From: Gemmatimonadota bacterium
GTDB taxonomy: Bacteria; Gemmatimonadota; Gemmatimonadetes; Gemmatimonadales; GWC2-71-9
Assembly: GCA_025357945.1 (NCBI GenBank)
Contig: JANYLJ010000003.1
Location: 1-64,000 of the forward strand
Length of the DNA stretch: 64,000 nt
Direction of reading: 5' to 3'
Translations under genes and position numbers: made by a program
Shown: in pieces, positions 945-59,837 of the stretch
Layout of the letters: each line of letters begins with the position of its first letter
Numbering within the stretch: position 1 is the first letter of the stretch
The notes under the pieces: generated by a model
Databases searched by the model: none
Seen by the model: only the letters and a program-made list of their open reading frames with translations
What the model was told of the DNA's origin: nothing

Positions 945-1052
945 GGCCGACGTGTCCGGGCGCCAGATTGGGATCGAGCGGAGTGTCAGCCACAGGAGTC
1001 ACTCGCCAGCAATTCGTTATCCGCCGCCGACCACGTTGGCGTCGTGCGCCCC

Positions 1053-2744: not shown

Positions 2745-2795
2745 CCGACCCTCCTCGTTACGCTTTGCCCGACACATTCCCCTGAAGTCGCCGGT

Positions 2796-2821
2796 CGCCG
2801 GTCGCCGATGGTGAACCGGCG
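2796..2821 (-). terminator. Hairpin after the Wzi-like gene (possible terminator)
   Basis: CGCCGGT at 2796-2802 pairs with ACCGGCG at 2815-2821, six bases beyond the stop of the leftward Wzi-like gene. No U-run follows, so termination is only suggested. The neighbouring text also repeats GTCGCCG, a GC-rich spacer motif. Confidence 0.35.
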
Positions 2822-2826
2822 CAACC

Positions 2827-4344
2827 CTAGTGGGAGAGTACGCCGCCGAGGCGGAAGCCGATAGTGGCCTGGACTCGCCCGACGAATGCCGTCGCTCCTG
2901 AGTTGCGCACGTGCTGGATCCCAGCCTGTCCGGTCACCGCCACGCCACGTTCTTCGCCGCTCACGCCCACTGTGGCCTGCCAGGTGTCGCGCCGCGTCCC
3001 GATGAACAACGTCGGGAGCCTGGCTGCGGTGCTGGCGTCGGGAAAGGGGTCGTTGATTTGCCCCTGGCCCTGCCGGCGCAGGTCGAGCTGCGGGGTCACC
3101 AGCCAATGATCACGAACCGGCACCGAGACGCTCACGGAAAATTGATCGTTGTCGATGAAGTTGCGCCCGATACCCACGCCGGCATCGGTGAAGTTCTCGT
3201 TGACATTGGCGGTGTGATACGCCAGCGAGGAGTTCATCGCATAACTCGCCCGCCACGCGAGCTCGCCCGCGAGCGCGCCCGAAGCCACGACGCCGAGCCC
3301 GAAGCGGTGCGGGTAGGGATTCGCCGGGTCGAAGGTCCAGTCGTCGATCGCTCCCTGCACCTCGAGCCGGAGCTGGTTCACCGGTCGCCACGTCGCGTCG
3401 CCACCGAGCATCACGTTGCGCCGGTCGCCGATGCCGAACTGGCGTCCGAACGTCATCAGGATGAAGGGATTGAGGATCGTCGGGTCCGGGGCCCCGCCAC
3501 TGCGCTGGGAGACCGATGATTCCCACACGGCAAGATCGAGGTTGTCGCGCACGCGAACCTGCAAGCGGTGGGTTGCAAAGAGCCGAGTCACCACGGTACC
3601 GCTGTCGGTCACGCCATCGCTCAACGGTGCCACCAGCGCCTCTAACCGGATGGTCCGGTTGCCCAACCAGAACGACAGATCGGTGCGCGGATAGCCGTAG
3701 TCACTGATCGGAATGCCGGGCATGCCCACCGGCCCCCAGTTGCGCGACATCTGGCCCAGATGTACGCCGCCCCACTGCCACTCGGCGGTGGCGTACGCGG
3801 CCACGAGCCGGAAGTGGTTGAGCTCATTGACCGATCCGTATGGACGATAATCCGGGTCGTCCCTCAGGCGAGGCTCGTACGCCGGGCGCAGATTGACCGT
3901 GACCGCACCGAGACCCATCGTGAACGCCACATCGACATAGGCCTGAAGATTGCCCACGCCGCCGAGTGCCGGCAGATCCCGCCGGCCCTGAGTATAGGCC
4001 TGAACGCCGCCGCGGGGTGCCACACGCCACCAGGCTTCCGACGGCGGCAGTTCCCAGGCGCGCAGCAGCTCACGCACCCGGCGCGCGCTCGAGCTGGTCG
4101 AGTCGCGTGCCGCGGCGGCGTGCAGCGCGGCGGCGACACTACGCTGCAGCAACGGCCGCACCTGTGGCGAGGGGTCCTTCACCTCGCCGCGTGCGATCAG
4201 CAGCTCCAGCATCGGCAGGCGCGGATCATCGAGTGCGATATACGGTGAGCCCTGTGCGGTGCCACGGTGTGCCATGACTGTTGCGGCGAAGGCGAGCAGT
4301 ACGACGATCAATCGCCAACGAGTGGAGACCACGCCGGCAATCAT
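2827..4344 (-). CDS. Capsule assembly Wzi-like outer-membrane protein
   Basis: 505 residues from ATG at 4344. The frame stays open upstream but runs into the export gene. A signal peptide (about 1-31, hydrophobic VVLLAFAATVMA) is followed by a helical stretch and then a strand-rich barrel. SRNWGPVGMPGIPISDYGY resembles the conserved WGPG region of the Wzi/capsule-assembly family, which anchors capsule polysaccharide at the cell surface. It starts 13 bases after the stop of the SLBB export gene, so the two form an operon. The family call is by motif and context. Confidence 0.6.
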   Translation of the reverse strand: MIAGVVSTRWRLIVVLLAFAATVMAHRGTAQGSPYIALDDPRLPMLELLIARGEVKDPSPQVRPLLQRSVAAALHAAAARDSTSSSARRVRELLRAWELPPSEAWWRVAPRGGVQAYTQGRRDLPALGGVGNLQAYVDVAFTMGLGAVTVNLRPAYEPRLRDDPDYRPYGSVNELNHFRLVAAYATAEWQWGGVHLGQMSRNWGPVGMPGIPISDYGYPRTDLSFWLGNRTIRLEALVAPLSDGVTDSGTVVTRLFATHRLQVRVRDNLDLAVWESSVSQRSGGAPDPTILNPFILMTFGRQFGIGDRRNVMLGGDATWRPVNQLRLEVQGAIDDWTFDPANPYPHRFGLGVVASGALAGELAWRASYAMNSSLAYHTANVNENFTDAGVGIGRNFIDNDQFSVSVSVPVRDHWLVTPQLDLRRQGQGQINDPFPDASTAARLPTLFIGTRRDTWQATVGVSGEERGVAVTGQAGIQHVRNSGATAFVGRVQATIGFRLGGVLSH

Positions 4345-4357
4345 CTGCTGCACTCGC

Positions 4358-6799
4358 CTATTTGAACCGGACCAGCGCGATGATGATCGTCGCGGTGCTC
4401 GCCAGCATCGTCGCGATCGCGGCGATGATCGACATATTGTCGCGCGGCGGCCGGTCGGGCTTGACGGGAACTGACACCACAGAACCCGGCGTCGGTGTGG
4501 GCGAGTGGCCGGCGAAGAACAGGAAGCCGCCCTGCCGGGTTTCGGTCTTGCCGTTGGCGTGCCGTACGCTGGCCCGGCCGCGGTTCCCGTTTTGCGCCAC
4601 GCCGCCCGCCGCGCCGATGTAGTAATCCAACCCCTTGCCCGGCTCCCACAGTACGCTGCCGGGCGAGTTGACCGCACCGTCGATGCGCACGCTCGGCTGG
4701 TATTCGGGGATGATGATGCGGTCGCCTGGTCGGAGCCCGATATCCTGCTCTGATCCCGGCTTGCGGAGTGCCCGCGGCAGGTCCACATCCAGCTGGCCAA
4801 CGCCGTCCACGTCACGGGTGAATCTGACGCCAGCGGGATAGGCGCGATCGGTCATGCCACCGGCACGGGCGAGGAGGTCGGTCAGGCGATCGGTCTTGGT
4901 GCGCAGCGAATACGTGCCGGGAAACCGCACTTCGCCACCGATCGATACGGTGCGCTGGTAGGCGAAGTCGGGCTGCCGGAAGATCAGCACATTATCCCAC
5001 GGCGCCAGCGGAACCTCTGGTGCGCCCGAGCGCCGGAACGCGGTGCCCGGCGGGCCGATGTAGCGGCCCAGGCTGTCGCGGTCGAACAGGTACGTCGAAT
5101 CGAGCGGCACGCGAAGAGTCGTTGCCAGCTGACCGGCGCTGCGATCGGTTGGCAGCCGGGCGATTTCGGCGGAGTCGAGTGACGCACCAGCGATCAGCCC
5201 ATGCGCCTGGAGTACCAGGTCGCGCAGCGTCATTCCTTCGCGCCACGGCACGATCGCCGGCAGGTTCACCGCGCCGACGATTGAAACAGTGCGGATCGGC
5301 CGCATGTCGAGCCGGTTGTAGATCACGATGGAGTCGCGATCCTCGAGCGCCGGGTCGGCCGGCCACGGTGCGGCGCTGTCGGCCGGCAGTGCCACCGGTA
5401 TCATGCGACGAGTCTGGTCCGCCCGGTTGAGCCGCGAGATATGCGCCCGGCCGGCGTACGTGGCCGGCTGCAAACCGCCGGCGCGGACGACGAGCCGCGA
5501 CAGGGTCAGGCCGGGCTCGATGCCGAACTTGCCTGGCAGGTACACGCTGCCGCGGATCTCGACATAGTTCCGCTCGGCGTCGCCTACGCTGAACACCCGG
5601 ACGGTGTCGCCGTCTTCGACCGCGAAGGGCGGAATCATCCCGCCGGGAAGCGGCACGTCGACGGTCACGCGTTGCGAACCGCCAGCGAGGCGCTGGGCCG
5701 GCGGGACCACCCGTTCGATCGATACCCGCGTCCGGGCGGCGTCGGCATCAAGCCCACCCGCGGCGGCGAGTACGTCGGCGAGCGTCTCGTTCGCGGCGAC
5801 GTCGTACGAGGCCGGGCGCAGCACGCTACCCCGGACCGTGACGCGGCGCTCGCGCACCCCGACGTACACCACGTCACCATTCTCGACGCGCAGGTCGCTC
5901 CTCGTGTCACCCTTGAGCAGGTAATCATAGAGGTCGAACGTGGCCACCTTGGTGCCGTTGCGTCGCACTGTGACGGCGCGCGGGTTCGCCCGCTCGGTCA
6001 CGCCGCCCGCGGTGTACAGCGCGGTGAGCACCGTACCGAGCGCACTCACCTGGTACGCGCCGGGCTGGTTCACTTCGCCCACGACGTGCACCTGCACCGC
6101 GCGTACGTTGGCGACGGAGAGGTCGAACTGGGTCGTCGCATTCGCTCCGCGGCGCACGCCGGAGTAGACGCGGCCGAGCCGGTCGTAGAGGACGTTGCGC
6201 GCCTGATCGAGCGTGAGGTTGGACAGGAACACCTGACCCACCTGCGGGATCAGCACGAACCCTTCGCGGGTGATCGAAAGCTGGTGGGTCAGCTCGACGT
6301 CGCCGGTGAGGATCAGGACGAGTACGTCACCGGGTCCGAGGCGATAGTCGGGCGGCACCGGGCCCGAGAGCAGCGGCAGGAACTGGGTGGTGCTGCGACG
6401 GAACACGTCGACACCGAACACGCCGCTCGGCGGTTGTGCCGGCGCGCGGCGAACGCCGGTATCCACTGACATGGGGGGCGGCGGGGTCGGGGCGAGGCCG
6501 AGAGCCTTGATCGCCGCGGCCTGGCTATCGGTGACGGCGCGCAGCGGCGGCAGTGAGGATTGGTCGGCGAGGAACGGATCGAGCAGTGTCGCGTCGTACC
6601 CGCTCGCCTTGAGTCGGGCCCGGATCTGTTCCGGCGTGAGGCCGGACTCCTTGATGCGGGCGCGGACGGCGTCGGCGTTGCCCGGCAGTTGCAGGGCGGC
6701 CTGGACCTGAGCTTGCGACGGTTGTTGTGCGGCGAGCGGGTTGGCGAAGGACAGCAGGGCGATCACCGCCAGCCAGCGCGGCACGGATCGATTGAGCAT
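4358..6799 (-). CDS. Polysaccharide export protein with multiple SLBB domains (Wza-like)
   Basis: 813 residues with a Sec signal peptide (1-24, ending ANPLAAQQ). A proline-rich linker precedes the polysaccharide-export domain (YRLGPGDVLVLILTG, about 150-240). Repeated SLBB beta-grasp units follow, each recognisable by a 'VxVxGxVxxPGxY' core (for example VHVVGEVNQPGAYQV and IRGSVYLPGKFGI) and an 'LxDLVxxAGGL' helix. One hydrophobic helix ends the chain (SIIAAIATMLASTATIIIAL). It is roughly twice the length of E. coli Wza and has no lipobox cysteine. It should form the outer-membrane or periplasm-spanning conduit for the glycan made by the genes at 7373-21169. Confidence 0.8.
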   Translation of the reverse strand: MLNRSVPRWLAVIALLSFANPLAAQQPSQAQVQAALQLPGNADAVRARIKESGLTPEQIRARLKASGYDATLLDPFLADQSSLPPLRAVTDSQAAAIKALGLAPTPPPPMSVDTGVRRAPAQPPSGVFGVDVFRRSTTQFLPLLSGPVPPDYRLGPGDVLVLILTGDVELTHQLSITREGFVLIPQVGQVFLSNLTLDQARNVLYDRLGRVYSGVRRGANATTQFDLSVANVRAVQVHVVGEVNQPGAYQVSALGTVLTALYTAGGVTERANPRAVTVRRNGTKVATFDLYDYLLKGDTRSDLRVENGDVVYVGVRERRVTVRGSVLRPASYDVAANETLADVLAAAGGLDADAARTRVSIERVVPPAQRLAGGSQRVTVDVPLPGGMIPPFAVEDGDTVRVFSVGDAERNYVEIRGSVYLPGKFGIEPGLTLSRLVVRAGGLQPATYAGRAHISRLNRADQTRRMIPVALPADSAAPWPADPALEDRDSIVIYNRLDMRPIRTVSIVGAVNLPAIVPWREGMTLRDLVLQAHGLIAGASLDSAEIARLPTDRSAGQLATTLRVPLDSTYLFDRDSLGRYIGPPGTAFRRSGAPEVPLAPWDNVLIFRQPDFAYQRTVSIGGEVRFPGTYSLRTKTDRLTDLLARAGGMTDRAYPAGVRFTRDVDGVGQLDVDLPRALRKPGSEQDIGLRPGDRIIIPEYQPSVRIDGAVNSPGSVLWEPGKGLDYYIGAAGGVAQNGNRGRASVRHANGKTETRQGGFLFFAGHSPTPTPGSVVSVPVKPDRPPRDNMSIIAAIATMLASTATIIIALVRFK

Positions 6800-6899
6800 G
6801 GGTGGTAACCTAACTGCCGTATCAGGGCATCAGTGGGGAGTCAGGCGCCCGTGCCACGGCGGCTTGACGGGGTCGCTGGCTGCCCGGTCTATTGCACCG

Positions 6900-7262
6900 G
6901 TGAACTCCATTCGTCATACACTCTTTGTCCTGTACGTTGCGGCCATGGTGCTGGCCTTTCTGCTGCCGGTGCCGACGGTGCCGATTCCGTTACCCAACCA
7001 GTTCGACAAGATGGTCCATTTCGGGATCTTTCTCGGGTTCGCGCTGCTGCTCCACCTTGACCGGCGACCGAGGCTCGGGATCACGCTGTTGGTGTCGCTG
7101 GCGTTCGCGGGCGGGATCGAGTTGGTGCAGTCGCTGCTGCCATACCGGAGCGGGGATTGGCGGGATTTCGCGGCCGGAGGCGCAGGGGCGGGGCTGGGAG
7201 TGGTGCTGGTGGTTCTGCTCAGGCGGCGCACGGGCAGCGTTGGGGATTCGGAGGCATCGTAG
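6900..7262 (+). CDS. VanZ-like membrane protein
   Basis: 120 residues with four hydrophobic segments. The VanZ pattern is clear: FDKMVHFGIFLGFALLLHL, then GGIELVQSLLPYRSGDWRDF, then a small-residue helix. VanZ-like proteins are common beside exopolysaccharide genes but their chemistry is undefined. GTG at 6900 is the best start because the protein then opens with a short basic segment before helix 1; there is no strong ribosome site, so the start is uncertain. It is divergent from the SLBB export gene with about 100 bases between them. Confidence 0.7.
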   Translation: MNSIRHTLFVLYVAAMVLAFLLPVPTVPIPLPNQFDKMVHFGIFLGFALLLHLDRRPRLGITLLVSLAFAGGIELVQSLLPYRSGDWRDFAAGGAGAGLGVVLVVLLRRRTGSVGDSEAS

Positions 7263-7372
7263 GCGGTCGTGCGAGGTTACGGCGTGAAGTGTGGGGCACC
7301 GCTTGTTGCAGCGCCCAATCCGGCAGCCTAGCTTTGCAGACACCATCGCAACCTGGGTATTCGACGACGCGC

Positions 7373-8302
7373 GTGAATTCACCCCCACAGCAGATCCTGC
7401 GCGACCATTGGCGGTTCATCGGCGCAATTGCCGTTGCCTTCGCTGCAGTCACCGCGGTTGTTGTAATCCGGTCCCCTCGAGAATTCATCGCGCACGGCTC
7501 CTTCCTGCCGCAAGGTGGTGATGCGTCACGGTCCCGATTGACGGGCCTTGCTGCGCAATTCGGGATCAACGTTCCGTCGGGTGACCGCGGTCAATCGCCG
7601 GATTTTTTCGCCGAGCTCGTGAAGTCGCGCACAGTGCTTGACAGCGCCGTGGCGCGTGGTGACAACGACTCAACGGGAGCGGGGAGCCGATCAATAGAAT
7701 TGGCGCGTCTGTTCAATATCGCGGAAGAGGATCCGGATGTCCGCCACGACAGGTTGATCGATGCGGTAAACCGCCGCCTGCTCGTCATCGCCGGCCTCCG
7801 GACCGGTATTGTCGCGATCGACTTTCGGGCCCCTTCGAGGCAGGTCGCGACGAACATGGTCGCGAACATTATCGAGCAGGTCAACCGATTCGTCGTCGCG
7901 TCCAAGCGGCGTCAGGCAGCCGAAGAGGGCACGTTCGCCCAACAACGGCTTGATAACGCGAATCAAGAGTTGCGAAAAGCGGAGGATTCGCTGGTTGCGT
8001 TCAGCGAGGCAAACCGGATAGCAGGCGCGCCGCGTCTACAGGTCGATCGTGAACGCCTCCAGCGCAGCATCGATATTCGGCAGCAAGTGGTGACAACCAT
8101 CGCCCAGCTCTACGAACAAGCTCGGATCGACGCGCAGCGGCGCACGCCGTCGATCGTACTTATCGATGCGCCTGCGTCGCTCGCACGGCCGTTGTCGAGA
8201 CACCTGCTTTCCAAGGTCGGAATCGCCGCGATCCTGGGCGCCGTATTCGCTCTGGCGGGCTTGGTCGCGGACGACAAACGCACGCCACAACCGTCGGGGT
8301 GA
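7373..8302 (+). CDS. Wzz-type chain-length determinant-like membrane protein
   Basis: About 309 residues from GTG at 7373: transmembrane helix near 15-33 (FIGAIAVAFAAVTAVVVI), a periplasmic region with long charged helices (heptad-like around TFAQQRLDNANQELRKAEDSL), and a second transmembrane helix near 285-302 before a short cytoplasmic tail. That two-helix layout with a coiled periplasmic core is typical of Wzz/polysaccharide co-polymerases, which set glycan length. No C-terminal tyrosine kinase domain is fused. It opens the lower-GC glycan block. Translation may start elsewhere, as no good ribosome site is visible. Confidence 0.65.
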   Translation: MNSPPQQILRDHWRFIGAIAVAFAAVTAVVVIRSPREFIAHGSFLPQGGDASRSRLTGLAAQFGINVPSGDRGQSPDFFAELVKSRTVLDSAVARGDNDSTGAGSRSIELARLFNIAEEDPDVRHDRLIDAVNRRLLVIAGLRTGIVAIDFRAPSRQVATNMVANIIEQVNRFVVASKRRQAAEEGTFAQQRLDNANQELRKAEDSLVAFSEANRIAGAPRLQVDRERLQRSIDIRQQVVTTIAQLYEQARIDAQRRTPSIVLIDAPASLARPLSRHLLSKVGIAAILGAVFALAGLVADDKRTPQPSG

Positions 8303-8391
8303 TCGCCGCAGCGGACGGCGCTTCACCGATGAGCGCCTAGCCGATGCCCACGTATTGATTCGCAGGAAACCCTTTCCATGCTGAGTCCCGC

Positions 8392-9093
8392 ATGTCCTAC
8401 GGAAACTACATTCTGCGAACCGGCCTCGGTGTCATCGGCCAATTCGAGCTGGTGTTGGGCAGCCACTATTACGCAAGAGATTTTCGCGATACCCGGCCAG
8501 TATTGGACTTGGGACCGGGCCGGTGCTGGTTTACCAAACAGAGCCCCCATGACATCGTGGCGGTCGACATCGAAGCGGAAATCGTCTCGCACTACGCCAA
8601 GGAAGGTCTGCAAATACGCGAAGGCTCGGCATACGAGATTCCGTTCCCGGACAGCTACTTTGCCGGCGTTTTTTGCTGCTGGTTATTCGAGCACATTTCC
8701 GACCTCGACCGTGCAATGCGCGAGGTGCGGCGGGTTCTCAAGCCAGGGGGAAAGCTGCTGCTGATCGTTCCTTCGGCGAAGTTGCGCCAGTTTTGGGACG
8801 ATTACACCCATATCCGCCCGTTTACGCATACGTCGCTAAGACAATTGGCTGAAAACAACGAATTCGTGGACGTCGCCACGCAAGACATGCCGTATTCACG
8901 CGGTGCCCTCGTGATTCTCAGGACTGCTGGTCCGGCAGCCTGCCGTTCATGGCTGCGCTTTACCGATACGTTCTGGCGGGGGCTGGGCCTGACTAACACC
9001 GGCAATGTCGAGCTTCGGTGTTTCAAGCCAGCGGACCGGGCTGACGCCGTAGAACCTGGGCCCGGCATCTCACGCGCTTTCCCGGTGGAATAG
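8392..9093 (+). CDS. Class I SAM-dependent methyltransferase
   Basis: 233 residues. Motif I (VLDLGPGRCWF, about 37-47), an acidic residue after strand 2 (IVAVDIEAE), then the Methyltransf_11-type segment EIPFPDSYFAGVFCCWLFEHI and VRRVLKPGGKLLLIVPS. This is a Rossmann methyltransferase using S-adenosylmethionine. Its position between chain-length and flippase genes suggests it methylates a sugar or a lipid-linked intermediate; the acceptor cannot be read from sequence. DNA here is about 53% G+C in a sampled 60-base line (8641), lower than the flanks. Confidence 0.75.
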   Translation: MSYGNYILRTGLGVIGQFELVLGSHYYARDFRDTRPVLDLGPGRCWFTKQSPHDIVAVDIEAEIVSHYAKEGLQIREGSAYEIPFPDSYFAGVFCCWLFEHISDLDRAMREVRRVLKPGGKLLLIVPSAKLRQFWDDYTHIRPFTHTSLRQLAENNEFVDVATQDMPYSRGALVILRTAGPAACRSWLRFTDTFWRGLGLTNTGNVELRCFKPADRADAVEPGPGISRAFPVE

Positions 9094-9105
9094 ATCGAGA
9101 CGAGG

Positions 9106-10428
9106 ATGTTGGAATCCGGTGGCTCCAATCGTTCAGACGAGACGTTGTCGGTCTCTTCGCGATTTCGGCGCGCTGCGGCCTGGTCGCTAGTTGGTGCGTT
9201 GATATCCCGGGGTGCCTTGCTGATCGGAACGTTCGCAAGCGCTCGCCTGCTGGGGGCGGCAGGCTTGGGAGAATTTGGAACAATCCAGAGCACCACAACG
9301 CTGGTTGGGGTCTTTGCAGGACTCGGACTCGCGACGACCGCCGCTCGCTTCGTTTCCCAACTGCGGTCGGAACATCCATCCCGTTGCGCTGCTTCGGTCC
9401 GCGCGTCGCTCTACATGAGTTTGGCGGTCGGAATCATTGTTGCCGGTGCGACCGTCCCGTTCACATCAAAGATCGCAAGCGGCTTGCTTGCCGCACCACA
9501 CTTGGGGGCGGCGCTCCGTTGGTCGTTGCCCTTGATTCCCGCCAGTGCCGTGCTCGGCGTTCTGACCGGTACTCTACTCGGATACGAAGAATTCCGGTTG
9601 TGGACGATATTGACGGGATTGCGTGGCATCCTGGGCGGGGTCGGTTCTGTCGTTGGCGCTCGCGTGGCGGGAGTAGGGGGAATGACCGCCGGATTCACTT
9701 CCGCGGAAGTCATCTCCGCCGCGCTTTTCGGATTCTTTCTTCGCCGAAAGCGACTCCGCAACCACCCGTTCGATTTGGTCCTGACGTTGGGCGAAGTACG
9801 GCCGGTGCTCCAATTCGGCGTTCCCGCAATGCTGAGTGGGATTGCCGTGATGCCGGCCTTGTGGTTCGGCAGATTACTGCTGCTTCATCAGGCAGGCGGG
9901 TTCACGCAAGCCGGTCTTTTCGACGCCGCGACCAAGTGGGGAACTCTCGTGTTGTTCGTTCCATCGTCAATTGCGCCCATTCAGCTGCCGTTGCTATCAA
10001 ACCTGCTCGCGACGGGAAATTCCGAAGGATTCCGGCGGGTGGTTCGTGAGACTTCGTTGATCAGCACCCTCTCGTGTGCCCTTCCAAGTCTCCTGTTGGC
10101 CGCGTGTTCGCCCTGGTTTATGGCTGTCTACGGGTCGGCGTTTCGTATCGGTTGGCCTGTTCTCGTAATCGTTTTGCTAGGGACTATTCCCAATGCTCTG
10201 AATACGGTGCTTGGGCAGGCGCTAATCAGCGTCGGTGCCGTGTGGCGTCGGTTCGCTTGGGATTGCTTGCTTGCAGCTGTCATCGCGTCATCGGCGTACT
10301 GGTTAATCGCCCCCCTCGGCGCGCTCGGGCTCGGTGCGGCGCTGCTGATGGGGTATTCAGTCATCGCCGTGGTTCTCGCCTGTGACCTCTGGCTGAGTGG
10401 CGTAGCCCTGCGCCCTCGCGTCGCCTAG
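9106..10428 (+). CDS. Polysaccharide flippase (Wzx/MATE-like, MVF superfamily)
   Basis: 440 residues, almost wholly hydrophobic, with about 12-14 membrane helices. The N-terminus RAAAWSLVGALISRGALLIGTFASARLLG and AAGLGEFGTIQ match the start of O-antigen/polysaccharide flippases, where the first helix is followed by 'ARxLGxxxxGxxxxxxS'. It should move lipid-linked repeat units across the inner membrane. It starts 13 bases after the methyltransferase and stops five bases before the polymerase. Confidence 0.8.
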   Translation: MLESGGSNRSDETLSVSSRFRRAAAWSLVGALISRGALLIGTFASARLLGAAGLGEFGTIQSTTTLVGVFAGLGLATTAARFVSQLRSEHPSRCAASVRASLYMSLAVGIIVAGATVPFTSKIASGLLAAPHLGAALRWSLPLIPASAVLGVLTGTLLGYEEFRLWTILTGLRGILGGVGSVVGARVAGVGGMTAGFTSAEVISAALFGFFLRRKRLRNHPFDLVLTLGEVRPVLQFGVPAMLSGIAVMPALWFGRLLLLHQAGGFTQAGLFDAATKWGTLVLFVPSSIAPIQLPLLSNLLATGNSEGFRRVVRETSLISTLSCALPSLLLAACSPWFMAVYGSAFRIGWPVLVIVLLGTIPNALNTVLGQALISVGAVWRRFAWDCLLAAVIASSAYWLIAPLGALGLGAALLMGYSVIAVVLACDLWLSGVALRPRVA

Positions 10429-10432
10429 CGCC

Positions 10433-11872
10433 TTGATCACGACGCAACGATTTGCCGGTCGGCGGTCGGCGTTGGCTTGGTCAATTCTTGGCGGTGCCGC
10501 CATCGTTGCCATGCTCGTGTCGCCGCACATCTGGAAGTTTCCGTCGGCACTTCTGCCGGCCACGGTTTTTCTGATTGCGCCGATCGTGATTCCTTGTTTC
10601 GTATCCCGATCCAACCGCCCCCTGTCACCTCACAATTGGGCGCTTGTCGTCCTCTTCGTTTGCACGGTCGGCGTGCCCGTTGTGATGGTGTGGGAAGGGC
10701 CGGCGCGAGGCGTACTTCCGATCATGCCAGATGATGATGCGATCGGTGTTGCGCTACGCTTGCAGGCGGCTGTTCTGGTCGCGTTCTTGGTGGGCTTGGT
10801 TTCTTGGAACCCCGCATTCGCCAAGCCCGGACCCAGGTCTCAACCGTCCGGATCTGGCCTGCTGCCTCGCGAGATTGTTCTGTTCGCGTTCGCGGGCGTC
10901 GCTGGGCTTTGGCTGACGTTCGGCAGCATTGAGGCGGTGTTTCACTTTTTCTCCAACCCGGCTGAGTTCGCGAACGAATCGGCTGATCCCACAGTGCGGA
11001 AAGCACTCGGCCTGATACTGCGCCCATTTCTGATTCTCAGCGTCATCGGCTGGTGGAGCAAACGGGTCGTCGAGCATCACTCCACGAGTCTTCGAGTTGT
11101 CGAGACGGCGATCGCCGTCATCGTTATCATCATCGTGGGCATCTCCTACAGCTTCAACCGCGCGGCGTTCGCTGTGCCCATCGTAGCCCTCCTTAGCGCC
11201 TATTCAGGCTGGGTACGCCGCCCGCCGCTCCTGACATTGGTCTTGCTCTCCCTGTTCGGGTTTGGATCACTGATTGCGATCGGTTCATACAGAAGTTCCG
11301 GATTTGACGCCGGAGACGTCCTGCGAGACCCGGATGCGCAAGGATTTCTGTGGGATCAAGTCCATCCGCTCGACCAATTGCAGATCTACGGCGGGGGGCC
11401 GCAGTTCACGGCGTTCCTGATTCGGGCGAACGAGCTCTCGCGATCCGAGGCAGGCGGGACGTTGTTTGGTTCGCTCGTTTCGCCAGTTCCAATATTTGGC
11501 AAACCGTTTCGATCTGCCAGCGGCCCGGTTGTCTACAACCGATTGATCTACGGTACTTCGACGATCCTCGACCAGCTCATCCCGTTTCCGGGCGAATTGT
11601 TCATCAACGTTGGATTGCTCGGGACGTTGCTCGTGTTTGTGGTTCTGGGAATGATCGTTCGACAACTTGATCACTACTACGAGATAGCTTCAAGCCCGCT
11701 GCAATCTTACATCGCGTTTTACACGACGGCGTGGGTCCTGTATCTCGTCCCTGGAAGCCTATCGGCTGTTGCCCAGATCTTCGTTTACTTTTTTTGGCCG
11801 ATCTACGCGTACCTTGTGCTACACAGATGGCATCACCGCCGCCAGTCGGCGGGCGCACTCGTGGGAGGCTGA
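10433..11872 (+). CDS. O-antigen/repeat-unit polymerase (Wzy-like) membrane protein
   Basis: 479 residues with 10-12 membrane helices and a large loop (about 290-380, containing YRSSGFDAGDVLRDPDAQGF) between late helices, the usual Wzy topology. The segment SYSFNRAAFAVPIVALL is like the 'sxsRgaxl' motif seen in repeat-unit polymerases. Wzy sequences diverge strongly, so the assignment leans on topology and on the flippase directly upstream. The start is TTG at 10433, four bases after the flippase stop. Confidence 0.7.
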   Translation: MITTQRFAGRRSALAWSILGGAAIVAMLVSPHIWKFPSALLPATVFLIAPIVIPCFVSRSNRPLSPHNWALVVLFVCTVGVPVVMVWEGPARGVLPIMPDDDAIGVALRLQAAVLVAFLVGLVSWNPAFAKPGPRSQPSGSGLLPREIVLFAFAGVAGLWLTFGSIEAVFHFFSNPAEFANESADPTVRKALGLILRPFLILSVIGWWSKRVVEHHSTSLRVVETAIAVIVIIIVGISYSFNRAAFAVPIVALLSAYSGWVRRPPLLTLVLLSLFGFGSLIAIGSYRSSGFDAGDVLRDPDAQGFLWDQVHPLDQLQIYGGGPQFTAFLIRANELSRSEAGGTLFGSLVSPVPIFGKPFRSASGPVVYNRLIYGTSTILDQLIPFPGELFINVGLLGTLLVFVVLGMIVRQLDHYYEIASSPLQSYIAFYTTAWVLYLVPGSLSAVAQIFVYFFWPIYAYLVLHRWHHRRQSAGALVGG

Positions 11873-11878
11873 CTCGAA

Positions 11879-12985
11879 ATGCGATTGTGCCTGGTGGGGG
11901 GGATCTTCGACAAGTCTCGCGAGTATCGCGAACGTCACCGATATACGCCCGAAACGTTGCTGGCCGATGCGCTCGAATCCCTAGGGGTCGAGGTAACGCG
12001 ACTTGGTCACCGCACTTTTCGCCCATCGCCGGCCCACGACGTCGTACATGTTCACCACTACGGCGGTGCAGCGTTACGCGCAGCGTCGCAGTCACGCACG
12101 CCGTTCGTGTTTACCGGTCATGATCTACGTCTGTTGAATGGATGGCCCGTGTCGGCGGCGTGGCGTCACGGGTACCGGTTCGTGACCGATATGGCCGACG
12201 GTCTGGTCGCTCTGTCACGCCGGGAGCTTGCATTTCTCCGAACGCGGGGAGATCCGGCGAGTATCATTCGCCGGATCCCCAATGGGATTCGCAGCGACAT
12301 CTACCGGCGACTGGATGTTCCCGAGACCGGCCAACTCGTGGCGCTCTGCGTTGCCCAACTCGATCCGATAAAGGGGATCGATGTCCTACTTCGTGCGGTC
12401 GCTTTGCTGCCCGATCTTCCCGTGCGAGTGCGACTCGTTTACCAGACCGCGGCGTTCGAGTCAACGTATCGTCGCCTTGCGTTGGAACTGGGCATCGAGG
12501 CCCAGGTACAGTTCATGGGGTTTCTGGCGCCGGGCGAATTAGTCCGGGAATACTCGGCCGCGACGATGTTGGTACTGCCGAGCCGCAGCGAGTCGCGACC
12601 CAGCGTGATCACCGAAGCGTTCCTGTGTGGAACGCCAGTAATCGCGAGCGATGTGGGCGCGGTTGGCGAGATGCTGGGCCCGCATGGACTCGTCACGCCG
12701 AGCGGAGACGTGGCTGCATTGGCAAACGCCATTCGCATGATGAGTGAGCGGCCGCGGTTGAATGCCGCTGAACGGGAATTGTTGCGCTCGTTCGCCTTAC
12801 GAGAAGCGAGCATCGAGGAGATGGCACAAGCTCACCTGCGACTGTATGACGAGGTAATTCGTGCGGGTCGGCGACGGCGCTCCGCTGTTCGACACATCTT
12901 CGCCACGGGGGTCCGGGCCGTCACGGACCTTGTTGAATGGCGACGCAATGTTGGCGCCGATGGCCAATGTCGTCTGGTGAAGTGA
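11879..12985 (+). CDS. Glycosyltransferase, GT4 family
   Basis: 368 residues with a GT-B fold. The N-terminal half begins MRLCLVGGIF and contains HVHHYGGAAL and FVFTGHDLRLL. The C-terminal half carries the GT4 nucleotide-sugar signature, ALCVAQLDPIKGIDVLLRA and SRSESRPSVITEAFLCG with the two Glu of the EX7E motif, then TPVIASDVGAVGEM. It should add one sugar of the repeat unit on the cytoplasmic side. Donor and linkage are unknown. The stop overlaps the next gene's likely GTG by four bases (GTGA). Confidence 0.82.
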   Translation: MRLCLVGGIFDKSREYRERHRYTPETLLADALESLGVEVTRLGHRTFRPSPAHDVVHVHHYGGAALRAASQSRTPFVFTGHDLRLLNGWPVSAAWRHGYRFVTDMADGLVALSRRELAFLRTRGDPASIIRRIPNGIRSDIYRRLDVPETGQLVALCVAQLDPIKGIDVLLRAVALLPDLPVRVRLVYQTAAFESTYRRLALELGIEAQVQFMGFLAPGELVREYSAATMLVLPSRSESRPSVITEAFLCGTPVIASDVGAVGEMLGPHGLVTPSGDVAALANAIRMMSERPRLNAAERELLRSFALREASIEEMAQAHLRLYDEVIRAGRRRRSAVRHIFATGVRAVTDLVEWRRNVGADGQCRLVK

Positions 12986-14148
12986 CAACTGTGTTCATCA
13001 TTCATGTTGGTGTGACGAACTTTCCATCGATTCCGTGCTTCTTCGGGGGGGCGATTCAGCGCCGGATCTGGGAACTGGCCCGCACTCAAGCCGTGTCAGG
13101 CGACGAGGTCGCGATCGTCTCGATCGGGAAAGCTGGAGAAACCAAGACCATCGAAGGCATTCGGATCGTGTATATCCGTTGCCTCATGGCGGGGCCGCTG
13201 CGGCATCTTGAGTTCCTTGGCCGGGCGGCGCTGGCAATTCGGCGCATTTCACGCGGGCGGCGGCATGTGGTGGTTCATTTCCACAGTCAACCCGAGGGCG
13301 CACTGTTCCGTGCTGTCTTCCGCACGCCGGCCGTGTTGTCCTATGATTTCTTCCGCTTTCGGCGTGGCCGGAAGGGGTTGGTCGGCGTGATCATCAGATA
13401 CTGCCTGCTACGGTTCGATCACCTGCTGCCATGCTCCGAATATTGCAAGAAAGAATCAACCGACTACTGGGATCTGCCGGCTGGGCGAGTTAGTGTGCTG
13501 TACAACGGTGTCAACACTGATCAGTTTAGGCCCCTCGGACGCGGCCGGGCCGCGGAGCTGTCGGCCATTTCGTCGGCGAGTTGCATCGCATTGTACGTTG
13601 GCAGGATTGCCCGGCAAAAAGGTTCTGAAATCCTCATCGCTGCGGCGGAACGACTGGCGGCTCGTCGCATACCGGTTGCAGTGGTCGCCGCTGGCCCGAT
13701 TGGTCAATTCGACGCGGATGGAGATAACGGCGATTGGATCGGCCGCATGCGGCGTGCGGGAATTACGTATCTCGGAGCAATTCGTGAGGATCGCCTGGCC
13801 GCGATCTACTGCAGCGCCGACGTGTTCGTCATGCCGACTATCGAACTCGAAATGTTCGGCATGGCGGCCTTGGAGGCGCTCGCATGCGGAGTCCCCGTGA
13901 TTGCGACGGATCACGGAGGGCTGCCGGAGGTGATTACGGTCGATTGCGGCGTTTTTGTACCGGTGAGCGATGCCATCGCGCTGGCTTCGGCGGTGGAGCG
14001 GCTGGTACTTGATCCCGGCGAACGCGCCCAACTTGCGGCCGCGGCGGTAGAGCGCGCCGAAGTATTTTCCTGGAACGCAATCGCCCGAAGGGCTCGCACC
14101 CACTACGCGGCGGCGCTTGGCGAATCGGCGCGGAACGGGTCCGAATGA
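12982..14148 (+). CDS. Glycosyltransferase, GT4 family
   Basis: About 388 residues. GTG at 12982 gives the tight GTGA overlap with the preceding glycosyltransferase; ATG at 12967 in the same frame is an alternative. The acceptor-side half starts VFIIHVGVTNF; a basic stretch, RISRGRRHVVVHFHSQPEG, follows. The donor half has LYVGRIARQKGSEILIAAAE and PTIELEMFGMAALEALACG (EX7E), then VPVIATDHGGLPEV. It is likely a cytoplasmic sugar transferase for the same glycan. It overlaps the next methyltransferase by ATGA. Confidence 0.82.
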   Translation: MTTVFIIHVGVTNFPSIPCFFGGAIQRRIWELARTQAVSGDEVAIVSIGKAGETKTIEGIRIVYIRCLMAGPLRHLEFLGRAALAIRRISRGRRHVVVHFHSQPEGALFRAVFRTPAVLSYDFFRFRRGRKGLVGVIIRYCLLRFDHLLPCSEYCKKESTDYWDLPAGRVSVLYNGVNTDQFRPLGRGRAAELSAISSASCIALYVGRIARQKGSEILIAAAERLAARRIPVAVVAAGPIGQFDADGDNGDWIGRMRRAGITYLGAIREDRLAAIYCSADVFVMPTIELEMFGMAALEALACGVPVIATDHGGLPEVITVDCGVFVPVSDAIALASAVERLVLDPGERAQLAAAAVERAEVFSWNAIARRARTHYAAALGESARNGSE

Positions 14149-14963
14149 GTGCCACGGCTCAGGCTGTATCGGGCATTGAACTCGAGCAATTGCTCCTGCG
14201 CACGCTCCCGATCTACGAACTCCCGGGGCAGGCATATTGGCGCGCGCTGGAACTGTCCGCAATCATGGATCTCAAGGATACAGTTGAATTCGACCGTCCC
14301 ATCCTCGAGATCGGGTGCGCCGATGGCGTGTTTGCGTCGCTGGTGTTCGACCAGATTGATGACGGCATCGATATCAATGAACGCGGGCTAGCGCGGGCGC
14401 GACGCAAGGGCGTCCCGTATCGTCGCGTGCATCTCATGGACGCGCGGAAGATGACATTCTCAGCTGAATCCTTCGGAACCGTGTTCGCCAACTGCGTCAT
14501 TGAACACATTCCCGATCTTCCAGCGGTATTGGCGTCGAGCCACACGATCCTGCGTGATGGCGGACGATTCGTCGCCACGGTGCCCCTGCTGGGGATGAAC
14601 GACCATCTGACTTTTCGATCCAAGCGGTATTCTGACCTGCGACGACGGCAACTCGTGCACCTGAACCTGCACGACGCGGACGGGTGGCAGTCCGTCTTCA
14701 GGAGTGCAGGGTTCAGGGAATTCGAACTGCGGCCGTACATTCGTGGCGGCCAGTGCGAGTTGTGGGACCGGCTTGACGCGCCGATTTGTTTAGGAATATC
14801 CGGACGATGGAACATCGGCGCGGCGCTTCGACTTGCTACCCACGCTCTTCCGCACGGCATCCGCGGCTGGATCCATCGATCGCTGGCTCGCTGGATCGCG
14901 GTGAAGGATGCCCGGCTGCGCCACGGACCGCCGTGCGCAGCGGCAATTGTTGCCAGCAAATGA
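14145..14963 (+). CDS. Class I SAM-dependent methyltransferase
   Basis: 272 residues. Motif I is PILEIGCADGVFASL (about 51-65). Motif II carries the acidic residue in GIDINERGL. The Methyltransf_11 section reads MTFSAESFGTVFANCVIEHI, followed by HTILRDGGRFVATVPLLG. The C-terminal 100 residues are family-specific. It overlaps both neighbours by ATGA, so it is translated as part of the glycosyltransferase block; a sugar methylation is the simplest role, but the acceptor is not visible. Confidence 0.75.
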   Translation: MSATAQAVSGIELEQLLLRTLPIYELPGQAYWRALELSAIMDLKDTVEFDRPILEIGCADGVFASLVFDQIDDGIDINERGLARARRKGVPYRRVHLMDARKMTFSAESFGTVFANCVIEHIPDLPAVLASSHTILRDGGRFVATVPLLGMNDHLTFRSKRYSDLRRRQLVHLNLHDADGWQSVFRSAGFREFELRPYIRGGQCELWDRLDAPICLGISGRWNIGAALRLATHALPHGIRGWIHRSLARWIAVKDARLRHGPPCAAAIVASK

Positions 14964-15847
14964 CCGCTCGTGTCACTATCGGCATCCCGTTCTTGAACGC
15001 GGCAACCTGGCTGCCGCTCGCCATTCGCTCGGTCTTCGCGCAGTCGATCGACGAATGGGAATTATTCCTTGTGGACGACGGCTCGACCGACGAGTCTCTG
15101 CGCATCGCGTCATCCGTGAGCGACAATCGGGTGCACATCGTGGCGGATGGGCGGCAGCGTGGCCTCTCGCGGCGCTTGAACGAGATCACGGAGCGTGCGT
15201 CGACGTCGTTCGTCGCGCGAATGGACGCCGACGATGTCATGCATCCCGAGCGGCTCGCGCGCCAACTTGCGGAGTTCGATCGTACCGGCCAGATCGATGT
15301 GTGCGCCAGCCTTGCAGTTACGATCGATGAAGGCAATAGGCCGATCGGAGTTCGGGGGCTGGCGACGTCCCAGGCGAGCGCGATGAATGTGTTTGCGCAT
15401 GGGCTGTTTGTGCATCCGACTGTGATGTTCACTCGTGAGTGGGCATTGCGCCACCCGTACAGTGACCAGTACGTCCGTGCGGAAGATCGTCACTTGTGGT
15501 GCGCGTATTTTTCCCAACTCACGTTTCGGGTTATCGACGAGCCACTCTTGTTCTACCGGGAGCCGGCGCCGATTCGGCTCGGTCCCTACTTGGCGTCGAA
15601 CCGTTCCGTACGTAAGATTATCCGTGACCTTGGTCCGGAGCATCTCAGCCGGGTTCAGCGGACAGCTCTGGTATTTCGATCTCACGTCGCGGACGCGGTG
15701 CACCGGGCAGCGTCGCTGTCGGGTACCGATCACGTGTTTATGAAGCGTCGACATTCGGCGCTGTCCATTTCTGAGGCCCGGAAGTGCGGCGAGGTTCTGG
15801 CCCACATCGCCCGGACGTTCCTACCTGGTGTTGATCGTGCCGAATGA
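14960..15847 (+). CDS. Glycosyltransferase, GT2 family
   Basis: 295 residues from ATG at 14960, which overlaps the methyltransferase stop (ATGA). The frame is open further upstream but that part is out-of-frame methyltransferase sequence. GT-A hallmarks: VTIGIPFLNAATWLPLAIRS, LVDDGSTDES, and the metal-binding DxD in RMDADDVMHPERL. DRHLWCAYF resembles the 'ED' region near the acceptor site. It transfers a sugar from a nucleotide donor to the growing lipid-linked unit. Confidence 0.82.
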   Translation: MTARVTIGIPFLNAATWLPLAIRSVFAQSIDEWELFLVDDGSTDESLRIASSVSDNRVHIVADGRQRGLSRRLNEITERASTSFVARMDADDVMHPERLARQLAEFDRTGQIDVCASLAVTIDEGNRPIGVRGLATSQASAMNVFAHGLFVHPTVMFTREWALRHPYSDQYVRAEDRHLWCAYFSQLTFRVIDEPLLFYREPAPIRLGPYLASNRSVRKIIRDLGPEHLSRVQRTALVFRSHVADAVHRAASLSGTDHVFMKRRHSALSISEARKCGEVLAHIARTFLPGVDRAE

Positions 15848-17006
15848 CGCGGCAGCCCGGAAGTCCAACCGGGTACTTCTCGTTTCAACGGTTCCAATCA
15901 CGCTCTATCACCTCCGCGGCTTCGTGGAATGGTTGGCGAAACATGGTTATGAAGTTCATGTAGCTTCTGCGCCCCGCGAGCTCGAGACATTCGTCGCCGG
16001 GTGGCCATGTGTGGTTCACCGTTTGCCGTTGCGCCGTCGGATGTCGCCCTTTGCAGACCTCTGGGCCATCGCTTGCTTGACCCGCCTGATCTGGAAGATC
16101 GATCCCGCGGTGATTCACACTCATTCCCCGAAGGCGTCACTGTTAAGCATGCTGGCTGCATCGATTACCGCGCGTCGCCTGAAAATCTATCATGTGCATG
16201 GTGCACCGTTCGAGACTGCTACTGGCTTGTCGAGGCTTGTTCTCATCGTCAGCGAGCGGTTGACGGCGTACCTCGCCGACGAGGTATGGTGTGTGAGCAA
16301 TTCTGTGCTCCGACTTTTGACCGAGATCGGGGTGCCTCAGACGAAGATGCGGGTTCCTCAGAACGGGAGCATCGCAGGGGTCGAGGCGCGGCGGTCCTTC
16401 TCCCCTGACGCCAGGGCAGCGGATCGCATGGCGTCGCGTGAAAAGCTCGGCTTGGGCGTCGAGGATATTCTAGTAGGGTTTGTTGGTCGACTTTCCGGCG
16501 ATAAGGGGATTGACGAACTTCGTCATGCATGGGCATCACTTAGTCTGGCAAATTCGCATGCATATCTTGTCGTGGTCGGCGATATCGACGAACGTCAACC
16601 AATCTCAGGGGATCTTGAATCATGGCTCGCGAGCGGACCTCATGTCTTTCACATCCCACACACGATGGAGCCTGCCGCGTGGTTTGCCGCAATGGACGTT
16701 TTTGTTCTTCCGTCATACCGAGAAGGGTTTCCGGTTGTCGTCCTTGAGGCAGCGGCGATGGCTCTCCCGACGGTCGCGACCCGGGTAACCGGTTGCGTCG
16801 ACGGTGTAATCGATGGGTGCACCGGCGCTCTCGTCCCTGTCCGAGACGCGAACGCATTGGAGGGCGCAATTGGTCAGTATTTGAAGAGTGCCGCGTTGCG
16901 ACAATCTCACGGAATACAGGCCCGTGCCCGCGTACTCGCCGATTTCGAACCAACGGCGTTGTACAACGATTATCTTACTCACTATCGCCGAACACAGACC
17001 GAGTAG
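15828..17006 (+). CDS. Glycosyltransferase, GT4 family
   Basis: 392 residues from GTG at 15828 (GTG at 15837 also possible); it overlaps the GT2 gene by about 20 bases. The N-terminal half has VLLVSTVPITLYHLRGF, VIHTHSPKASLLSML and IYHVHGAPFETATG. The donor half has VGFVGRLSGDKGIDELRHAW and PSYREGFPVVVLEAAAMALP (EX7E-like), then TVATRVTGCVDGVIDGCTG. The HTHSPKA and VHG motifs are shared with the WbpH/PglA-like branch of GT4. A sampled line in this gene (16561) is about 48% G+C. Confidence 0.82.
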   Translation: MLIVPNDAAARKSNRVLLVSTVPITLYHLRGFVEWLAKHGYEVHVASAPRELETFVAGWPCVVHRLPLRRRMSPFADLWAIACLTRLIWKIDPAVIHTHSPKASLLSMLAASITARRLKIYHVHGAPFETATGLSRLVLIVSERLTAYLADEVWCVSNSVLRLLTEIGVPQTKMRVPQNGSIAGVEARRSFSPDARAADRMASREKLGLGVEDILVGFVGRLSGDKGIDELRHAWASLSLANSHAYLVVVGDIDERQPISGDLESWLASGPHVFHIPHTMEPAAWFAAMDVFVLPSYREGFPVVVLEAAAMALPTVATRVTGCVDGVIDGCTGALVPVRDANALEGAIGQYLKSAALRQSHGIQARARVLADFEPTALYNDYLTHYRRTQTE

Positions 17007-17080
17007 CGTTGGCAGACGTTCGAGCGGAGACGCGATGCCATCCCTCGGCCACGCCGAACGCTAATGATCAAGATCTCAGT

Positions 17081-17170
17081 ACCACGCGGGTTGTCCTCGT
17101 CACTGGGGCTTCCGGGTTTGTCGGCACACCCATGTGCCCGCGCTTCCGGCGTCGCCCGTTTGTCGTCTAG
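17081..17170 (+). pseudogene. N-terminal remnant of a second NAD-dependent epimerase
   Basis: One frame reads RVVLVTGASGFVGTPMCPRF and hits a stop at 17168-17170. VLVTGASGFVGT is the exact start of an extended-SDR epimerase Rossmann fold, yet nothing of the rest of the protein follows. The intact epimerase begins 17 bases downstream with its own copy of the motif (VVITGAAGFVGT). No start codon or ribosome site is evident. I read it as the 5' stump of an epimerase whose 3' part lies at 18141-18512. Confidence 0.65.
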
Positions 17171-17186
17171 ACTTGGGATACACCCG

Positions 17187-18140
17187 ATGAGCCGTTCCGT
17201 CGTCATTACCGGCGCAGCCGGGTTCGTTGGAACGTCCGTTGTCGCGCGGCTGGTAACAGAAGGGCGAAATCGCGTGACAGCTGTGGTGCGCCGCAGGTCG
17301 AGCGATAACTGTAGCGGATATGAGTCGGTGTGCGTCGTTGATTTGGCTGCGTCCGATATCGATTTCACCTTTCTGCGTCGTGCGAGTGTGGTCGTCCATT
17401 TGGCAAATCGGGCGCACGTGCGCGCTGACTCACCACGCGCGTCAATGGCGGAATTACGGCGCATCAACGTCGAGGGGACGATTAATGTCGCCCGGAGCGC
17501 GGCCGCCAGAGGCGTCCGACGATTCGTTTACGTCAGTTCGATTGGCGTGAACGGCAACCTCACAGGCGAGTCACCGTTTCGGGAGACTGATCCCCCTTCG
17601 CCGCAGGAACCGTACGCTCATTCAAAATGGGAAGCGGAACAAGGACTGCGATCTGTGGAGACTGAGACCGGAATGGAGGTCGTCGTGATCCGTCCACCTC
17701 TCGTTTATGGTCCCGATGCCCCCGGGAACTTCGGTCGTCTGCTTCGCCTTGTGCGAAGCGGCGTTCCACTGCCGTTTGGAATGACGCGGAACTGCCGGAG
17801 TCTGATTGGAATCGACAACCTTGTTGATTTTGTTTTGGTCTGTATGGACCATCCTGCCGCCTCTGGGGAGACCTTCGTTGTCAGCGACGGTGAAGATATC
17901 TCGACGCCCGACCTCGTCCGACGACTGGCGAGCTCTATGGGGCGTCCCGCCTTGTTGCTGCCAATTCCGACGCGTGTGATGACCGTTGGGGCGTCCACGT
18001 TTGGCATGCAGGACACAGTCCAGTCTCTCCTTGGCTCGCTGCAAGTGGATGCCGGAAAGGCCCATCGCGTACTCAATTGGCGGCCGCCGGTACACCTTAC
18101 TCTCGGCTTGCATCGCGCGGCGCAGCCGAGTACCCGGTGA
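17187..18140 (+). CDS. NAD-dependent epimerase/dehydratase (UDP-sugar type)
   Basis: 317 residues from ATG at 17187. The Rossmann motif is VVITGAAGFVGTSVVARL, followed by VVHLANRAHV, the catalytic Ser/Tyr region FVYVSSIGVNG and YAHSKWEAEQ (YxxxK), then VIRPPLVYGPDAPGNFGRLL. The C-terminal part, SLIGIDNLVDFVLVCMDHP and SLQVDAGKAHRVLNWRPP, is typical of WbpV/GalE-like enzymes that work beside an initiating sugar transferase. It is probably a UDP-HexNAc 4-epimerase or related 4-keto reductase; substrate is inferred. It is flanked on both sides by pieces of a paralogue. Confidence 0.78.
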   Translation: MSRSVVITGAAGFVGTSVVARLVTEGRNRVTAVVRRRSSDNCSGYESVCVVDLAASDIDFTFLRRASVVVHLANRAHVRADSPRASMAELRRINVEGTINVARSAAARGVRRFVYVSSIGVNGNLTGESPFRETDPPSPQEPYAHSKWEAEQGLRSVETETGMEVVVIRPPLVYGPDAPGNFGRLLRLVRSGVPLPFGMTRNCRSLIGIDNLVDFVLVCMDHPAASGETFVVSDGEDISTPDLVRRLASSMGRPALLLPIPTRVMTVGASTFGMQDTVQSLLGSLQVDAGKAHRVLNWRPPVHLTLGLHRAAQPSTR

Positions 18141-18512
18141 CCTTCGCGTGGGAACCGCCGCCGTCTAGTAGCGCTGGGTAACCTGGTGGATTTCATACTC
18201 ACTTGCATCGAACACCCGGCCGCAGCGAACGAGACATTCCTGCTGAGTGACGGCGAAGGTCTTCCAAACGCGGATCTGTTCCGCCGCGCGGCAGCCGCGG
18301 TGGGGGTCCCGGCCCGCCTGGTCCCGGTGCCGACCGTCGTCCTCGAGGCATGTGCGGCGGTGCTGGGCACGAGGGCCCTCGTCCAGCGCCTTTGCGGCAG
18401 CCTGCAAGTGGATATCGGCAAGGCGCGGCGAACACTCGGCTGGCGGCCGCCGGTCAGCGTCGACGATGGGTTGCGGCGCGCCGTGCAGTCGCTTGGAGCT
18501 AGAGCGACGTGA
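18141..18512 (+). pseudogene. C-terminal remnant of a second NAD-dependent epimerase
   Basis: In the same frame as, and directly after, the TGA of the intact epimerase, the sequence reads NRRRLVALGNLVDFILTCIE and on to RTLGWRPPVSVDDGLRRAVQ. This is the last ~120 residues of an epimerase and aligns by eye with residues ~205-310 of the intact gene (SLIGIDNLVDFVLVCMDHP). The N-terminal two thirds, including the Rossmann motif and YxxxK, are absent. Its own stop overlaps the sugar transferase GTG by four bases, the arrangement expected of a formerly functional epimerase-transferase pair. A product initiated at GTG 18186 could be made but would lack the active site. Confidence 0.75.
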
Positions 18513-19069
18513 AACGCTTCGTGGACAAGGTCGTGGCCGTTGTTGCGGCGTGCGTGCTGCTCATTCTCTTCGCGGTGATCGGCCTGCTGGTGCGACTGAC
18601 CTCCCGGGGACCAGCGCTGTACTGGTCCGATCGCGTCGGCCGGTACAACCGGATCTTTCGCATGCCGAAGTTCCGCACCATGCGCGTCGACACCCCGTCA
18701 GTCGCGACGCACCTGCTGACCGACGCGCGGTCCCGGCTCACTCCGATCGGCGGATTCCTGCGCCGCACCAGCCTCGACGAGCTGCCTCAGCTCTGGAGCA
18801 TTCTGCGCGGAGACATGAGTTTTGTGGGGCCGCGTCCGGCGCTCTTCAATCAGGACGACCTGGTGATCCTCCGTACGGAGCAGGGCGTGGACCAGCTGTT
18901 GCCGGGAGTGACCGGCTGGGCACAGGTCAACGGGCGGGACAAGTTGTCGACCGCCGACAAGGTGCGGCTGGACGCCGAGTATTTGCGGCGCCGCTCGATG
19001 TGGCTTGACCTGCGGATCGTGATGCTGACGGTGCTGCGCGTCGTCCGGAGCGAGAGCGTGTCACACTGA
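18509..19069 (+). CDS. Initiating sugar phosphotransferase (bacterial sugar transferase, small monotopic type)
   Basis: 186 residues. One N-terminal hydrophobic re-entrant helix (about 5-30) leads into the catalytic domain: RMPKFRTMRVD, LRRTSLDELPQLWSILRGD with the Asp-Glu dyad, MSFVGPRPAL and LPGVTGWAQVNGRD. This is the PglC/WcaJ-type core that attaches the first sugar-1-phosphate to undecaprenyl phosphate. It lacks the extra helices of WbaP. GTG at 18509 overlaps the stop of the broken epimerase (GTGA). It converges on the dehydratase with 60 bases between stops. Confidence 0.88.
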   Translation: MKRFVDKVVAVVAACVLLILFAVIGLLVRLTSRGPALYWSDRVGRYNRIFRMPKFRTMRVDTPSVATHLLTDARSRLTPIGGFLRRTSLDELPQLWSILRGDMSFVGPRPALFNQDDLVILRTEQGVDQLLPGVTGWAQVNGRDKLSTADKVRLDAEYLRRRSMWLDLRIVMLTVLRVVRSESVSH

Positions 19070-19129
19070 GCGGTTGCTCGGCCATGTCCGCCTACCCAAC
19101 CGCGGTATTGGGCTCCAGTCGATGAGCCC

Positions 19130-21169
<2,040 letters not shown>

Positions 21170-59704: not shown

Positions 59705-59837
59705 GGAGAGAAGAGAGACGAGAGACGAGAGACGAGAGAAGCGAGCGGGAGGTCGTCATCCCGAGCGCAGCGAGGGATCGGCCCGTAACGCAGCGATCCT
59801 CCGCCCCTTCCCCCTCTCTTCTCTCTTCTCTCCCCTC
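59703..59837. repeat. Purine/pyrimidine inverted repeat enclosing a CATCC element
   Basis: A purine-rich arm with four GACGAGA-like 7-mers (59703-59742) is matched by a pyrimidine-rich arm (59804-59837, CCCCTCTCTTCTCTCTTCTC), in inverse orientation. Between them lies GTCATCCCGAGCGCAGCGAG (59755-59774) and a hairpin GGATC (59775-59779) with GATCC (59795-59799). It fills the gap before the Gfo/Idh gene. Confidence 0.75.

Follow-up and report, generated by a model that had tools for sequence, protein, structure and literature searches.

The nearest described analogue of the locus reported here is the cps island of Neisseria meningitidis, in which galE1 is intact and galE2 truncated, and for which illegitimate recombination into the resident gene was proposed by the authors (PMC5349592). 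Like our locus, the meningococcal island holds an intact epimerase and the 5′-truncated remnant of a replaced epimerase at a glycan-island edge; however, galE1 and galE2 sit at either end of that island, in duplicated regions D and D′, whereas the two genes studied here stand head to tail and are far more diverged (PMC5349592). A second parallel comes from the immunity-gene arrays of the Vibrio cholerae type VI secretion system (T6SS), which show sequential displacement with homology-facilitated illegitimate recombination as the putative mechanism (PMC5361080). These arrays share a one-sided homology anchor and the position of the displaced gene's downstream part behind the newcomer, but the genes have another function and their remains include useful immunity genes, while our remnant is a truncated enzyme (PMC5361080). 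Homology-facilitated illegitimate recombination has been described in competent bacteria. In gene content, the locus resembles the R. etli 4-reductase system and the WbpV/WbpL pair, with an extended SDR gene adjoining that of an initiating transferase and a 4,6-dehydratase nearby, but its transferase is of the PglC type and its activities are predicted from sequence.

We analyzed a 64,000-nucleotide stretch of a Gemmatimonadota genome (hereafter, the window), concentrating on positions 17081–18512. This segment quite probably represents the scar left on the right-hand side by the replacement of a glycan cassette, the incoming one having been joined into a resident reductase–transferase pair.

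An intact epimerase between two epimerase remnants

Along the window, a 28-codon Rossmann N-terminus is followed by a complete epimerase/reductase and then by an in-frame, 119-codon C-terminal tail. These pieces and their surroundings are as follows.

1037–7189: left flank conserved in the same-genus genome G009, with genes for an outer-membrane protein and a Wza-like exporter and a VanZ-like gene, from DNA identity and Pfam (Poly_export/SLBB, VanZ)
7190–18140, plus strand: putative incoming, non-shared glycan cassette, from a Wzx-like flippase to the nested epimerase (Pfam); no G009 DNA match between the shared blocks; GC ~60% versus 66% in the flanks
15828–17006, plus strand: GT4 glycosyltransferase (PF00534), the last cassette gene ahead of the N-terminal fragment; best relatives in the order 41–44% identical
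17081–17167, plus strand: epimerase/reductase N-terminal fragment, 28 codons, ending in TAG
17187–18140, plus strand: nested epimerase/reductase, full-length PF01370; closest relatives 52% identical
18141–18152: putative right-hand exchange junction, 12 bp from the newcomer's stop to resident homology; GC change-point range 17845–18297
18153–18512, plus strand: C-terminal remnant of the resident epimerase/reductase, 119 codons, lacking the Rossmann and catalytic parts
18509–19069, plus strand: resident PglC-like phosphoglycosyl transferase (PF02397; PglC structure 8g1n, E 4e-29)
19130–21169, minus strand: PglF/WlaL-like UDP-GlcNAc 4,6-dehydratase (PDB 5bjw, WlaL, E 8.7e-87)

Scanning the whole window blindly in six frames with a profile built from 28 members of the family recovered all three pieces (E 1.6e-130 for the intact gene, 1.8e-44 for the tail and 2.4e-5 for the N-terminal fragment), in agreement with the initial annotation, which had placed each of them correctly. 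The nested gene starts nineteen bases after the fragment's TAG and encodes 317 amino acids, matched by PF01370 from end to end (E 1.6e-34, profile positions 1–239 of 240) and containing both the glycine-rich GxxGxxG loop (TGAAGFVG) and the YxxxK motif (YAHSK). Decay of the nested gene itself was considered and rejected, as only 3 of 42 conserved positions differ in it, in keeping with other members of the family. Its residue 120 (17544–17546) is a glycine in place of the near-invariant lysine in the SSxKVNG motif of relatives, which may alter its specificity. No relative more than 52% identical was found among 288 genomes of the order and 395 sampled from the phylum; genome_contigs yielded one 46% match. 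Because no donor appears among the genomes searched, the incoming end and any micro-homology at the junction cannot be inspected.

Tail homology begins at the asparagine of NRRRLVALGNLVDF (18153), 12 bp past the TGA of the nested gene and in the same frame, at the position of residue 202 in the nested gene. Nearly all alignments between the tail and its relatives start at this base. From there, homology runs without a stop to 18512, covering about 38% of the gene, and the tail's TGA lies within the GTGA that begins the sugar transferase, as the initial annotation had noted. Approximately 3 of 21 conserved positions are changed in the tail, which has neither a Rossmann domain nor a catalytic YxxxK and no Pfam match of its own. 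The short open reading frame at 18186–18512 is thus a remnant and should not be annotated as an enzyme gene in its own right. GC content follows the same division: the nested gene (60.0%) and the upstream glycosyltransferase (57.7%) resemble the cassette, while the tail (68.1%) and the transferase (65.8%) resemble the flanks.

The N-terminal fragment belongs to a frame (17060–17167) that reads ...TTRVVLVTGASGFVGTPMCPRFRRRPFVV before the TAG at 17165–17167, so that, as first described, no protein follows it. Its profile score of 19.8 bits was reached by 0 of 60 simulated windows with the same dinucleotide make-up (15.0 bits was reached in one of three earlier simulations). Given these simulations, the correct strand and a position just upstream of an epimerase, a chance match is very unlikely and we regard the fragment as real. 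Two attempts to assign its parent failed or gave little: the 28 residues are 48–61% identical to every family member, leaving no signal in identity, and GC (67.8%, reached by 5% of equal-length cassette windows versus 48% of flank windows) favors the resident weakly. The fragment may be the resident gene's opposite end or else the relic of an earlier exchange.

Relatives carry an uninterrupted resident pair

A single close family member lies directly upstream of the same transferase in G001, G067, G129, G212, G248 and G262, which span the genus and the order; G001 is of the same genus, and its contig starts inside the epimerase. Their transferases are 76% (G001), 73% (G067) and 70% (G129) identical to that of the window, and those of the remaining three are also close relatives. 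The stop/start overlap GCGACGTGAAGCG at the epimerase–transferase border of the window recurs in G001 and G067. This confirms the expectation that relatives hold one uninterrupted epimerase before the transferase, and a second close family member beside the first was found in none of nine relative loci examined. Behind relatives of the upstream glycosyltransferase, an epimerase occurred in none of three cases and a transferase followed directly in two of three.

The tail is 69% identical to the epimerase of G067, 65% to that of G043 and 58% to that of G001, but only 52–54% identical to the nested gene. Because of this difference, the nested gene represents a different allele and not a recent copy, and a recent duplication is ruled out; the tail and the nested gene appear to be long-separated alleles. 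As with galE2, the remnant therefore corresponds to the displaced resident allele and the intact copy to another one (69% versus 52–54%). The initial annotation had expected both remnants to derive from one resident allele and the intact gene from another, which holds for the tail but could not be established for the N-terminal fragment.

A same-genus genome with a different cassette

The edge of glycan-cassette exchange suspected at this site is demonstrated directly by G009. Its DNA matches the left flank of the window at 87.9% identity over 1037–6828 and 90.1% over 6836–7189, ending sharply at 7189, and then matches nothing up to a second shared block at 18677–19081 (405 bp, 91.6% identity). 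Different glycan genes occupy this interval in G009, so the same locus holds different cassettes between shared blocks in the two genomes. In the window, Pfam identifies a Wzx-like flippase, GT4 glycosyltransferases, methyltransferases and, last, the nested epimerase; a further gene without a Pfam match was labeled Wzy-like from its position and its appearance as a membrane protein.

The second shared block corresponds to a truncated resident transferase in G009, from approximately codon 57 to 186. There (L060), a new, intact transferase reading frame ends at 12101 and is followed by 14 bp and then by the tail of the resident transferase (12116–12519). The right junction of G009 therefore cuts the resident transferase, and the window scar is of the same kind, one gene upstream. 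The G009 fragment appears to be a distinct exchange scar at this locus, and two such apparent scars in adjacent genes of the resident pair, both within one genus, are the strongest evidence for an exchange edge. Omega was 0.26 for the G009 transferase fragment and 0.12 for the Wza-like gene, individual windows of which reach 0.35, making altered selection on the fragment only suggestive.

Beyond 19081, the right flank of the window is neither shared nor collinear with G009, which implies that the resident pair forms only a small island of shared sequence and that the locus has undergone other rearrangements. In the window, the dehydratase gene and that of the transferase converge, whereas in G001 and G009 the dehydratase follows the transferase on the plus strand, pointing to a further inversion or replacement right of the transferase. 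The phosphoketolase region at 22725–25160 matches another G009 contig (C8), and synteny is lost right of the cassette. Farther along, short GAGAGAC-type 7-base tandem tracts occur at 59712–59745 of the window and on many contigs of the genome, in both orientations.

Origin of the arrangement

Cassette replacement is the best-supported origin and builds on direct observations: the tail and the nested gene are different alleles, the left flank and the transferase end are shared, sister genomes carry differing cassettes, and the positions of the junctions are known. The ancestral locus would have held an epimerase-type 4-reductase overlapping, through GTGA, a PglC-like initiating transferase, and its variable region would then have been replaced by a foreign Wzx/Wzy-type cassette. 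The left end of the cassette falls at the conserved Wza/VanZ flank, where it could have been anchored through homologous recombination. The right end, probably through illegitimate recombination, would have been fused to the interior of the resident reductase gene, just past the stop of the cassette's own. The outcome would be a full newcomer reductase and the resident transferase, with a dead tail of 119 codons between them. Because the left flank is shared and the right join lacks long homology, the locus would fit homology-facilitated illegitimate recombination, a candidate mechanism. The initial annotation had proposed that a new epimerase split the resident pair; displacement of the resident by a different allele stands, but most likely a whole Wzx/Wzy cassette arrived, starting at 7190, and not one gene. 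Nor was the resident merely interrupted, as approximately 172 codons are missing if both remnants are its ends. Four points count against this reading: no donor appears among the genomes searched, the right flank past 19081 differs from that of G009, the tree of the tail columns accepts the tail and the nested gene as sisters, and a single exchange leaves the position of the N-terminal fragment inside the cassette unexplained.

An alternative is a two-step history, in which 7190–17006 was already the resident's partner and a later piece of ~1 kb, carrying the new epimerase alone, replaced the resident's middle, making both remnants one allele. The order and orientation of fragment, intact gene and tail agree with such a history, as does the flank-like GC of the fragment; however, the nested gene has the GC of the cassette, G009 lacks the entire cassette and 28 residues are too few to assign a parent. 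We consider this sequence of events unlikely, though well worth retaining.

Decay by deletion of an ancestral tandem array of two or three diverged epimerases, leaving one intact, is quite improbable. The initial annotation had offered three decayed tandem copies as its second option, of which recent copies are incompatible with 52–54% identity. An old, diverged pair is compatible with the tree, as the 119 tail columns do not resolve and accept the tail and the nested gene as sisters (AU p 0.21), yet no relative has such a pair (none of the nine loci), the old split sits poorly with a tail still open over 123 codons and exchange at this spot is evident from G009. An assembly artifact joining two strains' contigs with different alleles is highly improbable: the draft is probably a metagenome-assembled genome (75 contigs, 2% estimated contamination), but G009 carries an analogous scar independently, and repeat-driven misassembly at the site is unlikely because exact matches shared by the intact gene and the tail do not exceed 14 bp and the region 16.5–19.2 kb, junctions included, is free of within-window repeats of 18 bp or more.

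Predicted pathway and possible translational coupling

The enzymes around the scar form a coherent predicted pathway, which counts in favor of cassette replacement. The dehydratase (WlaL/PglF type) is the probable source of a 4-keto substrate, and the nested gene is likely to be a 4-reductase, judging from the neighboring PglF-like dehydratase and PglC-like transferase. By analogy with the R. etli 4-reductase and the WbpV/WbpL pair, the pathway probably yields UDP-QuiNAc or UDP-FucNAc, from which the transferase would move the phosphosugar to undecaprenyl phosphate. The complete pathway of predicted enzymes would thus have been retained through the exchange. No curated NCBIfam model matched the window's enzymes at its cut-off.

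Because the frame is open over 123 codons from the newcomer's stop to the overlapping transferase start, the tail could conceivably have been kept as a re-initiated coupling cistron, by which translation of the transferase would be coupled anew to the newcomer enzyme. Exchanges might then be selected to join just behind the incoming enzyme's stop, and the joins lie 12 bp (window) and 14 bp (G009) behind it; we nevertheless consider this idea improbable.

Implications

At one locus, two sister genomes carry apparent exchange scars in adjacent genes, and the resident reductase–transferase pair marks where the variable region ends on the right. The feature clearly records repeated surface-glycan gene exchange but is of an ordinary kind, and it adds a new instance of a displaced-enzyme remnant at a cassette edge.
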